This document shows positions 26,176-64,000 of a stretch of DNA of 64,000 bases, in pieces. The notes under the pieces were generated by a model. That model had not been told where the DNA came from and did not search any database. It saw only the letters and a program-made list of their open reading frames with translations. Position 1 is the stretch's first letter. Every line of letters starts with the position of its first letter. Position numbers and translations under genes: made by a program. The DNA is taken from contig NC_087081.1 of assembly GCF_026151205.1 (NCBI RefSeq), forward strand, positions 4,295,246 through 4,359,245. The letters are read 5' to 3'. This DNA is from Bolinopsis microptera. Lineage: Eukaryota; Ctenophora; Tentaculata; Lobata; Bolinopsidae.

Positions 26176-29100
26176 CTATGATGTTAGGATAAGTAGAAAT
26201 AGGAATGGCAAGCTTAGAACTAATCTGCCGGCACCTGACACAACTGAAAAATGTGTAGATTGTTAAAGCATGCCTTCAAAACCCAGTGATATCCTGAATG
26301 AGCCTTATATTCAATATCTATTGCATACATAATCTTTTTATGTATAATATTATGTAATACATACATAATATAATACTGCCGTTATCACTTATTCAAAACA
26401 TCTAAAAAATGAAAAAGAAACAGAGAAAATGATTTGTTCTTACCTGTCAATCGTAATGATTGGTTTTTACCTGTCAATCGTGACGAATCAAAAGTAACAA
26501 AGGGTCCTTGAAATATGTGGTACTCTTTAACTCCCTCTTCTGCAGCTTCATCCAGTGACCTTCTCTGTATTCTGTCTGTTATACAGATATCAGAACAGCT
26601 GTAAAGAGATTAGTGATTCTGTCTGTTATACAGATATCAGAACAGCTGTAAAGACATTAGGGATTGAATGACAACTAATAATATATCAGTAAAATTATTA
26701 TAATCATTTTCGAGCCCTGATAGATTTGTTTGATATTTCGTGTACCTGTTGCTAGATTTGTTGCATATTTTGACGAAGGCGTGAAGATACACTACTGACT
26801 GACTACTCATAAAATGGAAGGCTTTCAACGTGAATCGTCTCTTCTTTAGGTTATTTGTTTCGATATACTTGAAGGTAGAATCTACTATACACCTGGGAAA
26901 GAAATGTACTTGAAAATACCATACACTGGTGACAGGAAAAATAATGAATTTTTGTACGATGAAACTTTTATGTTTTTGACGAACTTTTGCAAGTCTCCAA
27001 ACAAATATTTAAATTTGTTTAAACAGCGATCTGTTTTCATGGTTACCAGGGTGGTTGTCATGGTTACCAGGGGTACTCACCCATTTTCTACAAGGCTGTA
27101 GGCGAAGGAACCTCCACTGCCACTCGGGCTATCACTAGCTCTAATATCTGCTATCTGCAGAGAAAGATTTTCGTCCGGAGATATCAATGCTACCTGGAAA
27201 TGTCGAGTTCAATCAATAAATCAATTAATCATTTGTTATTGTTCCTACTCAAACGAAACGATGTATGAATTTAATGTCAGCTGACCTTTTAAAGCATTCT
27301 ACTTCCAGGTATGAAAATTGCAAACTATCCAGCTTAAAAAGAAAGAGAAAGAGAAAGAGAAAGAGAAAGAGAAAGAGAAAGAGAAAGATAAAGAGAAAGA
27401 GAAAGAGAAAGAGAAAGAGAAAGAGAAAGAGAAAGAGAAAGAGAAAGAGAAAGAGAAAGAGAAAGAGAAAGAGAAAGAGAAAGAGAAAGAGAAAGAGAAA
27501 GAGAAAGATAAAGAGAAAGAGAAAGAGAAAGAGAAAGAGAAAGAGAAAGAGAAAGAGAAAGAGAAAGAGAAAGAGAAAGAGAAAGAGAAAATTTATCTGA
27601 ACTGTACCTCTAAATATATGTCATCTTGAACTGACAATCTTACAGGATACTGACTACTGTCCCTCTTCATAGTAAAGTTAGAACTCTCGTACAGATCCAG
27701 AACGAATGTGAAGGAGCCAGCTCCTTTAATGTCTACAGTGATCTGACCCCTTGCTTCCCAAGCTACGTTGTCCGTGTTCCCTGTGCAGAAATTAGAAATT
27801 AGAAATTAGAAATTAGAAATTAGAAAACCTGTGTATAAAAGGTTCGTTTGGTTATCGTGCGTCTAAATTTTGACGACTAGACAATTTTTCGACTGTCAAG
27901 TGAATGTTTGGGTAAACGAGACACCTTACAAACATTGTGTTTGTAATTTCGATGACTAGACAATTTTATTCATTTAGATAAGCTAGGCAACTTACAAACA
28001 TGGTGTATTCTTTTGTTCATAAAGAAAGAAAAAAGGAAGATTTTTTGCAAATTGGCTCCTATACCTGTCCTCTTATAAGCACACTCGAAGGTAATGTGAA
28101 AGTTATCTCCTCTGCTAATCAGACTACCACTTTCAACCCCACCGTTAGCCACCCCTGTTACCTGTTGAGTTGAGACACAGTTAATAAACTGCGGAGTAGC
28201 TGAAATGTAATACAGCAAAACAGAAGGCTCCAACCAAACACTCCACCTACTGATCCTAACCACCCATAACAACTCTCTATCTCTCTCTCTCCCTCTCTCT
28301 CTCTCTCTCTCTCTCTCTCTCTCTCTCTCTCTCTCTCTCTTTCTCTCTCTCTCTCTCTCTCTCTCTCTCTCTCTCTCTCTCTCTCTCTCTCTCTCTCTCT
28401 CTCTCTCTCTCTCTCTCACTCCTCGTGGTGCACAAAACCATTCCAACCTATGTATGTCCCCTCTACGGGTTAAGTGTAAAGTATGTTTAGGGTAATATTA
28501 CTGATATCACTAATATTACTAATATCTTGGATCGTATCGTTAGATCGTTAGGTGGGCAGACTTTGTAGAACAACTTTTCAATCTGAATTCGGCCCACTCT
28601 TATTCACGTCTCAATGGTTATTTCATGGGCAGTGAAACTTGACAACAGATTAAATTTAAAAGCTTTACAAACCTGGTTTTTATAAATAATGTGAGAGTCG
28701 TTGTAGTAAGCTTTTGTTCCACACCTTTCTAAAGGTGTTACGATTTCTTGGGACTCCCCCAGAAACTCGCACTCTGAAATTTAATTTTTGAAATATCTTT
28801 ATTTTTATTGGTTTATCGTTCATCATTCAAAAATTGTGCTTTTTGGAGGTAATGAGTTAGATTCGCACTAATACTTTAGCAATGTATTCTATGTGTATCA
28901 GTGGCGTAACGAAGGGCTCCGCTGACCCAAGGTTGTTAAATACGTATTAGGAGGGAATACGTATTGGAATACAAATACGTATTGATCCTCGAAAATTGAC
29001 GTATTACGAAAAGGTGTGGCTTGAAGTTGAAATTGATCGCGGACGGTCTTTAAATCCTGAACATCAAAATCATTAAATATGTATTAATATGTAATTGATA

Positions 29101-61451: not shown

Positions 61452-64000
61452 CTATCCGCCCTTTGGGTTGTGAGTTCTGGTATAGTAACTGGTGCTCGAG
61501 AACTCACACTTAGAAACATCACAGTAGGACCATCTCTTCCAGAAGTAGGTGGTGAAGCACCAGGGACGATTATCATCACCAGGGGAGGGGTTTCTACAGA
61601 ATCTGAAAACAATTTTGACATCAAAAATTAATAGTTCTATATACATTACTCGGGAATATTATAGCGGGTTAATTTATGACTGGGAAAATTAATGACCTGG
61701 AAAAATATCGCGGACTTTCCCAAACCCCGCCAAATTATCCCGGTCATAATATTCCCGAGTAAGGTAGTTTAAAAGTTTAAACGTTTAAAGAATTTTTCAT
61801 ATTTCTTGACACTTGGAAGATCACGCAGTTTATTCAAGTTACATAGTTGCTGACTACAAAACATGGGGGTAGTAATTAATTGTGTAACTATGGTAACTAA
61901 TTGTGTAACTATGGGAACTAATTGTGTAACTTTGGTAACTAATTGTGTAACTATAGTAACTAATTGTGTAACTATAGTAACTAATTGTGTAACTATAGTA
62001 ACTAATTGTGTAACTATAGTAACTAATTGTGTAACTATAGTAACTAATTGTGTAACTATGGTAACTAATTGTGTAACTAAAGTAACTTATTGTGTAACTA
62101 AAGTAACTTATTGTGTAACTATGGTAACTAATTGTATAATTATGGTAACTAATTGTGTAACTATGGTAACTAATTGTGTAACTATGGTAACTAATTGTGT
62201 AACTATAGTAACTAATTGTGTAACTATGGTAACTAATTGTGTAACTATGGTAACTGATTGTGTAACTATAGTAAAGTAGTAACTAATTGTGTAATTATGT
62301 ATTAGAAAGTACTTACCTGTGGTGTCCAACACCGTATCGCTTTATATTAGAATCATCATCATAACCATGGGGGTGGGGCCAGTTGCTGTACCAGTCGTTA
62401 CAGTTGTAGCTGTTACCTGCCGTCTTCGTCCTGAATTAATTTAATATAACAAGCTTAGTTAAGTAGACATTTCTTCAAATTTAAAATAAACATCTCAAAA
62501 ATATGATTTGTCAAACATGGGCACCTTTAACCAATGACCGCAATATACTTCTTATATTAGATTAGCTGAAAGTTAAGGGGGTGACCCCCCCCCCCCCCCC
62601 CCCCCCAATATACTTCTTATATTAGATTAGCTGAAAGTTAAGGGGGTGACCCCCCCCCCCCTTACCTGTCACCCCGGTAAAGCTCCCCTCTCTCCGTATA
62701 GCAGTCTACGTTCCATTTACATTTAGGAACTCCACAATAGTCCCACTTCCTGGTTAAAGGTGTTTTATAGGTTAGTTACCATAGTTACACAATTAGTAAC
62801 CATAGTTATAATGTTCCAACTTACTAGTGAGATCGAATATGTTGTTATTTTATGACAATCGGAGCAAATTTTCAATTAATCAAGTCTAGTAGGAGTAAGG
62901 TCCAATTAAGCTGTTCTCTGGGTTAAACTGAACCTGTTTCGGTCAGTAGTGTAACACCAAGGTCCATTAGGGTCGTTATCAGGATTTCTACAGTAATTGT
63001 GATTCCCAATGCCCTCTCCTGAGTAAGTGTTGATATCGCTGTGAGGGTAACTAGATCTCCAGTTCTGACAAACCACTCCTTTCTGCGTCTTGGAACGGTA
63101 ACCTGAAATCAGAGTAAGTGTTGATATTGCTGTGGGGGTAACTAGATCTCCAGTTCTGACAAACCACTCCTTTCTGCGTCTTGGAACGGTAACCTGAAAT
63201 CAGAGTAAGTGTTGATATTGCTGTGGGGGTAACTAGATCTCCAGTTCTGACAAACCACTCCTTTCTGCGTCTTGGAACGGTAACCTGAAATCAGAGTAAG
63301 TGTTGATATTGCTGTGAGGGTAACTAGATCTCCAGTTCTGACAAACCACTCCTTTCTGCGTCTTGGAACGGTAACCTGAAATTAAACGTCCAAATTTCGT
63401 AATAACGTGGGATCTAAGACATGATTGTTTGTTGCCCGGACGGTGAAGAAACTGAGAAATGAGTACAAGGAAGATTGTTGGTTCGATCCATAAGTTGTTT
63501 CAAGCTTTAATTAAAAGATTCAAATGAAAAAATGTTTAACTGTAGTACCTGTATAATTATACAACGTGATATTATTATCAGTGCATTGTGTACAACACCA
63601 ACTACACCGATCAATTGCCAAGCTGCGAAACATTTATTTATTATTATCACTTCGAGATGGCAGGGCCTACCCTACCTGTGTAATACAACCCTTTTTCATT
63701 GTAGCACATCACGTTAGTAACCACTGGTCTGATAGAGTAGAAAGAGCCCCGTCCTAGCCCACTAATCTTAGGGTACTGCCGACTATCTGTAACATCAGTC
63801 CTGGTGGTCCCCTCGTTCAGTCGGATCTTACTCCCCCCGTACCTGGTCCCACTGAAGATATACCAGTCACCTCTGTTAACCTTGAACGAGCTTATCTTGC
63901 CTCTCAGGTTGCTCGCTAGCTGAGTCCTCTTGTCGTAGATCACTGATGTGCTGCCGCTGAAGCTCTTTCCTGTAGCAATGGTGATTTCAGGTCCTTCACA
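61452..64000 (-). CDS. Gene D (3' part): beta/gamma-crystallin-like plus two kringle domains
   Basis: Five exons, 64000(partial)-63676, 63102-62934, 62749-62666, 62430-62317 and 61602-61452, join in phase to 843 nt (280 aa plus stop). The first exon encodes a beta/gamma-crystallin-like Greek-key unit: [40 protein letters not shown], then [13 protein letters not shown]. Kringle 1: [43 protein letters not shown] and [10 protein letters not shown]. Kringle 2: [45 protein letters not shown] and [10 protein letters not shown], ending THNPKGG and TAG. Each kringle has the six Cys and the NPD-type and PWC landmarks. Kringles mediate protein binding in secreted proteins. The N-terminus, and probably a signal peptide, is outside the window. 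Gene B and gene D converge with about 250 bp between their stops. Confidence 0.88.
61646..61762. mobile_element. MITE between convergent genes B and D
   Basis: Begins TTACTCGGGAATATTATA and ends with the complement ATAATATTCCCGAGTAA. 117 bp, non-coding, in the last intron of gene D just upstream (on the gene D strand) of its final exon. Confidence 0.75.
61864..62290. repeat. 21-bp array of GTAACTATGGTAACTAATTGT
   Basis: About 20 units with ATAG/ATGG/AAAG variants. On the minus strand it starts about 30 bp after the donor of gene D exon 62430-62317. Frames such as [11 protein letters not shown] are artefacts. Confidence 0.92.
62546..62665. repeat. Duplicated C-rich segment abutting a gene D donor
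   Basis: AATATACTTCTTATATTAGA-TTAGCTGAAAGTTAAGGGGGTGAC plus a poly-C run occurs twice in tandem. The second run touches the donor (minus strand GTAAG|GGGGG...) of the exon at 62749-62666. Confidence 0.8.
63010..63385 (-). repeat. 91-bp fourfold repeat of the gene D kringle exon start
   Basis: The acceptor and first coding bases (plus-strand GGAACGGTAAC|CTGAAAT) occur with exon-start positions 63102, 63193, 63284 and 63375, exactly 91 bp apart. Ninety-one is not a multiple of three and there is no donor within a unit, so the copies act as alternative acceptors or intron sequence rather than extra exons. Confidence 0.92.

Follow-up and report, generated by a model that had tools for sequence, protein, structure and literature searches.

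Introduction

Tandem repeats with units of about 30 bp have been described at exon-intron boundaries in human segmental duplications (Genome Biol 2009, PMC2812944), and introns can be gained through tandem duplication, as in the potato RdRp gene and in a fission-yeast intron that lies across several copies of a 24-bp repeat containing AGGT (PMC4974935). Both systems are precedents for the junction arrays described here, which lie in a window of 64,000 nucleotides from the ctenophore Bolinopsis microptera (contig C10:4295246-4359245, in an assembly of 264.65 Mb and 232 contigs) and in which the repeated unit, at most of the junctions concerned, contains the splice site together with the end of the adjoining exon. 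Intronic minisatellites have also been linked to alternative splicing in Caenorhabditis elegans (CeRep25B; PMC4039745), and tandem repeats make up 13% of the Hormiphora genome (PMC8527503).

The human repeats are like the ctenophore arrays in being minisatellites with units of ~30 bp that vary between recent paralogues, sit at boundaries and alter introns; there, however, exons expand and new or alternative introns arise, whereas the ctenophore arrays occupy old junctions at which the exon stays the same, have copies that are predicted to be hidden, occur in ordinary genes too, and repeat a junction-spanning unit up to 36 times. Intron gain likewise starts from a tandemly duplicated segment that carries splice signals and is spliced out, leaving the protein unchanged, but in the ctenophore existing introns are lengthened, no new intron is shown, and the units, judged by eye, match one end of the intron. 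The CeRep25B minisatellites share the association with splice decisions; they form a dispersed family in intron interiors, unlike duplications of a local junction.

Arrays Spanning Splice Junctions

The exon models of the two principal genes, A and B, were built by hand, and in each gene the 19 exons connect into a single open frame, with AG/GT at the introns; the evidence base is genomic sequence together with protein homology, and splice-site use is predicted throughout. A tandem repeat overlaps the exon-intron boundary at nine junctions in these genes, and at a further one in gene D (Table 1). Searching with the 20-bp core centred on each junction and accepting up to four mismatches in 20, a rule that favours intact GT/AG sites, we found the GT or AG kept in all 70 matching copies from the nine repeated junctions of genes A and B.

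The original prediction held that arrays across this gene cluster have units that include the first or last coding bases plus the splice site, and listed 11 splice junctions as well as the stop codon of gene C. An array is present at every one of these places, and the unit does include the junction in nine of the 11 (the A7 donor, the A18 acceptor and donor, B2, B9, B11, B15, B17 and the gene D acceptor); at the B12 donor and the B14 acceptor the arrays only abut the exon, and the boundary core occurs once. The two arrays attributed to exon 16 of gene A exist, although the exon is number 18 in the full model, and the A11 donor array is an extra case that the list lacked. The A3 donor appeared by eye to be a two-copy case, but its core occurs once and it was not counted.

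The single protein match to gene B, from Mnemiopsis leidyi (P0001; 68% identity in the best local alignment), is continuous across the joins at B2, B9, B11, B12, B14 and B17, with no inserted repeats. Exons 8 and 15 are absent from the Mnemiopsis protein, so that the B15 join is uninformative there, and because it also has ~110 extra C-terminal residues the end of gene B is uncertain. The reading frame gives a second indication: skipping the first donor at A7, B2 or B12 meets a stop within 15 bases, and the exon-proximal donor must therefore serve the full-length protein at these three junctions. Past the first donor the frame stays open for 83 bases at A18, 65 at B15 and 308 at B17, where frame alone is not decisive.

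We read these arrays as junction-spanning duplications concealed by splicing, together with a bias toward junctions in where such duplications are founded, and give this reading a probability of roughly 0.5. Each array would have started when a segment of 27-91 bp that by chance included an exon-intron boundary was duplicated in tandem. With exon end, splice site and intron all present in the unit, the gain or loss of whole units would leave a correct junction beside the exon body; surplus copies would be treated as intron and spliced out, so that the protein is unchanged. The exon-proximal copy is probably the one used, as frame and homology suggest at several junctions, and the arrays would grow and shrink fast through slippage or unequal exchange.

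Copy Number in a Paralogue of Gene B

Changes in copy number are observed directly between gene B and a paralogue, B', at about C10:4430165-4456152, the two gene copies lying 100 kb apart. Over 2868 bases of exon the two share 98.5% identity, and over 2556 bases in nine introns free of arrays they share 97.8%, the lengths of these introns differing by 46 bases at most. The corresponding lengths of introns with arrays are, for B and B' respectively, 360 and 1846 bases (intron 2), 762 and 11403 (intron 8), 581 and 1221 (intron 12), 1044 and 367 (intron 13), and 1917 and 1089 (intron 17); the array-bearing intron 15 measures 411 bases in both. Core copies number 3 and 4 at B2, 3 and 22 at B9, 16 and 2 at B11, 2 and 2 at B15, and 36 and 18 at B17, a change of up to eightfold, and for the abutting arrays Tandem Repeats Finder (TRF) reports ~10 copies against 28.5 plus 2.8 at B12 and 32 against 7 at B14. 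Copy number has therefore evolved far more quickly than sequence, with the exons preserved, which fits the prediction that the copies are hidden. The suggestion that splicing absorbs the copies agrees both with this and with the repeat-free joins in Mnemiopsis.

Several insertions were seen in the same introns and elsewhere in the two genes. The B11 array is split by a long interspersed nuclear element (LINE)-like insert at ~54283-55237, and mobile-element-like inserts lie within junction arrays of the paralogue in intron 2 (~1.4 kb) and intron 8 (~9 kb), all with bounds set by eye. Intron 9 of gene B is filled by a GC-rich element with long inverted repeats (48340-51012) that is absent from the paralogue (2827 versus 186 bases). 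Exon 10 of B' (C10 ~4447798-4447960) is one base longer than that of gene B and shifts the frame, reflecting a pseudogene, a sequencing error or a real difference.

Founding Units Relative to Junctions

Three null models were used: relocation of whole arrays, placement of the founding unit within gene spans, and placement of the founding unit stratified by unit length with repeats removed. Arrays more than 90% coding were left out, and the stratified test was also run without single-exon clusters and without arrays lying more than 50% inside interspersed repeats, the repeats masked being those repeated within the ~324 kb examined plus one element marked by hand.

In the window, the founding-unit null over gene spans gave 2.3 arrays straddling a junction against 8 of 27 observed (P=0.003), and 4.1 within 20 bp of one against 13 of 27 (P=0.0005). 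With repeats removed, 8 of the 11 arrays with units of at least 27 bp straddle a junction, where 1.82 were expected (0/3000 simulations), and 9 of the 11 lie within 20 bp (2.66 expected); units shorter than 20 bp gave no excess, with none of six straddling against 0.28 expected. Two long-unit arrays lie away from a scored boundary, namely the one at the stop codon of gene C and the insert-separated B11 array, which TRF does not score as touching the acceptor because the LINE-like insert cuts it.

As the window was chosen for its junction pattern, the fair test is an independent sample, for which we took ten 20-kb places, eight on C1 and two on C2. A full gene-chain predictor over-predicted, and an exon caller trained on genes A and B and the first seven paralogue exons was used instead; on the window, at threshold 14, it recovered 54 of 72 true edges and made 61 calls, where the reversed sequence yielded 9. 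The main sample figures are for multi-exon clusters at this threshold, and a threshold of 17 defines the stricter exons. Array edges had been expected to be enriched within 20 bp of splice sites, and so they are: 11 of 29 arrays of all unit lengths lie that close (4.46 expected; P=0.003), as do 6 of 18 with the stricter exons (2.8 expected; P=0.04). For units of at least 20 bp, 5/16 straddle a junction against 1.55 expected (P=0.012) and 9/16 lie within 20 bp against 2.6 (0/3000); for units of at least 27 bp the counts are 4/7 against 1.01 (P=0.007) and 6/7 against 1.54 (0/3000), and at threshold 17 three of the four such arrays lie within 20 bp (0.98 expected; P=0.04). Shorter units, below 20 bp, showed no significant excess in the sample (straddling, 0/13 against 0.59; within 20 bp, 2/13 against 1.63), and decoy exons called on reversed sequence at three thresholds gave 3 straddling arrays against 3.6 expected, 2 against 1.6 and 2 against 0.7, none of them significant. 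The direction in the sample is the same at unit cuts of 20, 24, 27 and 30 bp.

Founding position is thus not independent of junctions for units of at least 27 bp in the window and, with the permissive exons, in the sample (P=0.007; P=0.13 with the strict exons), and is independent of them for units under 20 bp. The claim that arrays are not random with respect to junctions therefore survives for long units, including those of the independent sample, and does not extend to short ones.

Two of the sample cases fall in recognizable genes with homology at the exon in question. In a villin/gelsolin-like gene (L019/L020 joined), the acceptor core CCACTATCAG|GGTTCTCACA occurs 18 times within 1.5 kb, the alignment to villin is gap-free at the join, and the array also approaches the donor at the other end of the intron to within 19 bp, across an inserted element; this further mobile-element-like insert in a junction array again has bounds judged by eye. 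In a DNAI1-like gene (L017/L018), the acceptor core TTAATTTCAG|TGAGCCAATG occurs twice, 40 bp apart, in an exon that aligns with DNAI1 from its first residues, the preceding exon not being established. In a second gelsolin-like gene (L015/L016) an array ends ~3 bp from the acceptor.

Alternative Explanations

The strongest rival, which we regard as possible though on balance unlikely, is neutral tolerance alone: duplications would arise everywhere, those in coding interiors would be purged, and the apparent preference for junctions would be small-number noise together with the choice of window. Several results lean this way and weigh against the reading of concealed duplications with a founding bias. 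Relocating whole arrays uniformly over 26176-61201 gives 7.9 arrays covering a junction against the 8 observed (P=0.57), so that the excess is gone under the simplest null. In the sample, straddling over all units reached 5/29 against 2.2 (P=0.053), and with the stricter exons it was not significant either for units of at least 27 bp (2/4 against 0.66; P=0.13) or overall (3/18 against 1.42; P=0.16). Arrays are common in general, those with a period of at least 7 covering 15,728 of the 200,000 sampled bases. The 27-bp cut was set after viewing the window; the exons of the sample were for the most part called ab initio; the sample covers two chromosomes only; and homology could be checked for only two of the four straddling long-unit sample arrays, those at 842-913 in L017/L018 and at 7298-9552 in L033/L034 lacking such support (the exon at the latter has no Pfam match). 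The junction bias, finally, has no demonstrated cause.

However, we judged relocation of whole arrays unsuitable as a null, since no array that grows within an intron can come to cover an exon; when the coding bases per array are limited to 60, the expectation falls to 4.4 against 8 (P=0.05). Under the founding-unit null, which we deem the appropriate one, the long units of window and sample both depart from neutral tolerance, the short ones show no excess, and the reversed decoys produce none that is significant. Tolerance accounts for the avoidance of exon interiors by arrays, but not for the preference of long units for junctions over intron interiors. Long-unit founding duplications would seem to land on junctions more often than in intron interiors, a statistical result from a modest sample that points to a bias in where duplications arise.

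A slippage or repair hot spot at junctions is a possible cause of this bias; one candidate process is the repair of staggered nicks that would form at co-transcriptional R-loops. The broader proposal, that ctenophore junctions are mutational hot spots for 27-91-bp tandem duplication, where transcription- or splicing-coupled repair founds minisatellites on splice sites genome-wide and gives hypervariable introns, dozens of identical splice sites and constant proteins, we consider doubtful.

Selection for redundancy or regulation, with identical splice sites kept to strengthen splicing or to allow regulated inclusion of copies, seems improbable to us. In its favour, the GT or AG is intact in all matching copies, and at B17 read-through at 58762-59069 would add seven further copies of 14 residues; as this stays in frame, variable peptide inclusion is conceivable there. 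Over window and sample, unit length is divisible by three in 5 of 8 donor arrays and in none of the 8 acceptor arrays examined (Fisher P=0.026, a post hoc comparison of hand-entered counts). Compensation for weak splice sites, however, is unsupported, since array donors are if anything stronger than others (median score 5.86, n=6, against 4.24, n=28; P=0.05; the two abutting donors left out) and acceptor scores are equal (n=3 against 30). The arrays, B11 excluded, are too homogeneous to reveal site-specific conservation, and both the repeat-free Mnemiopsis protein and the difference in copy number between paralogues argue against selected copies.

Very unlikely, too, is an origin of the array-bearing introns themselves in the tandem duplication of an exon segment containing AGGT: the model is a known one (Rogers; Hellsten; the fission-yeast repeats of PMC4974935) and AG|GT does lie within some units (A7, the A18 donor, B2, B15), but, judged by eye, each unit matches its intron at one end only, either the exon end with the donor or the acceptor with the exon start, where the model would require a match to the exons on both sides. 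Arrays are hard to assemble and the boundaries rest on sequence rather than RNA, yet an assembly artefact or wrong exon boundaries can be all but set aside, because the two copies of gene B carry the same arrays, which differ between them in length and in sequence, and the exon joins agree with the Mnemiopsis, villin and DNAI1 sequences.

The occurrence of arrays across splice junctions is real, general enough to be seen in unrelated conserved genes, and modestly significant. If arrays founded at junctions prove to be a general feature, they would connect DNA duplication with splicing or transcription in a way open to testing, allow introns to change length fast without change in protein, and serve as a natural experiment on spliceosomal choice where as many as 36 donors are identical. 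They are also a warning that exon ends will be misplaced by gene prediction and copy-number typing in genomes of this kind.

Gene Models and Other Features of the Window

Gene A matches the Pfam families Ig_3, I-set, Zona_pellucida and ZP-N, and its product is a probable membrane-anchored surface protein; gene B matches Lectin_C and Thyroglobulin_1. Antisense within intron 10 of gene B lies gene C, which is small, cysteine-rich and made of two exons, and has no Pfam match.

Table 1. Genes and tandem arrays of the window, in window positions; cores are written as the halves on either side of the junction.
Feature	Position	Strand	Unit and copies	Boundary	Exon bases in array	Core	Remarks
Gene A	26176..38770	-					19 coding exons joining into one open frame; immunoglobulin (Ig) domains and zona pellucida (ZP-N/ZP-C) domain
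A7 donor	33272..33486	-	69 bp x3	exon end 33442	~45	CCACCTACAG|GTTAGAGAGT x3	
A11 donor	29929..30132	-	34-40 bp x~5	exon end 30126		ACGGTAGTTG|GTAAGTTAGT x3	
A18 acceptor	26569..26665	-	47 bp x2	exon start 26598	30	x2	
A18 donor	26428..26481	-	27 bp x2	exon end 26471	11	x2	
Gene B	42748..61201	+					19 coding exons; two C-type lectin stretches and thyroglobulin type-1 domain; end of last exon uncertain
B2 donor	43191..43369	+	61 bp x2.8	exon end 43209	19	x3	
B9 acceptor	48047..48227	+	76 bp x2.4	exon start 48207	21	x3	
B11 acceptor	53714..55270	+	46 bp	exon start 55259		TTGTTACCAG|GACAACAGAC x16	last copy contains acceptor
B12 donor	55710..56094	+	33 bp x~11	exon end 55709		x1	abuts; exon bases not clearly repeated
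B14 acceptor	56610..57479	+	26-28 bp x32	exon start 57480		x1	abuts; copies without AG
B15 donor	57936..58011	+	36 bp x2	exon end 57947	12	x2	
B17 donor	58728..60343	+	42 bp x36	exon end 58761	34	x36	all donor-core copies with GT
Gene C	51641-52611	-					ATG at 52611
Gene C stop codon	51641..51817	-	45 bp x3.9				coding end, not a splice junction
Gene D kringle exon	63102..62934	-					Kringle, E=2e-18
Gene D kringle exon acceptor	63011..63382	-	91 bp x4				each copy begins TTTCAG|G

A dispersed unit of ~21 bp with GTTACCATAGTTAC-like sequence forms arrays at 42658-42738 and 61872-62274 and recurs around the genes; we take it, as a candidate only, to resemble an RFX X-box half-site.

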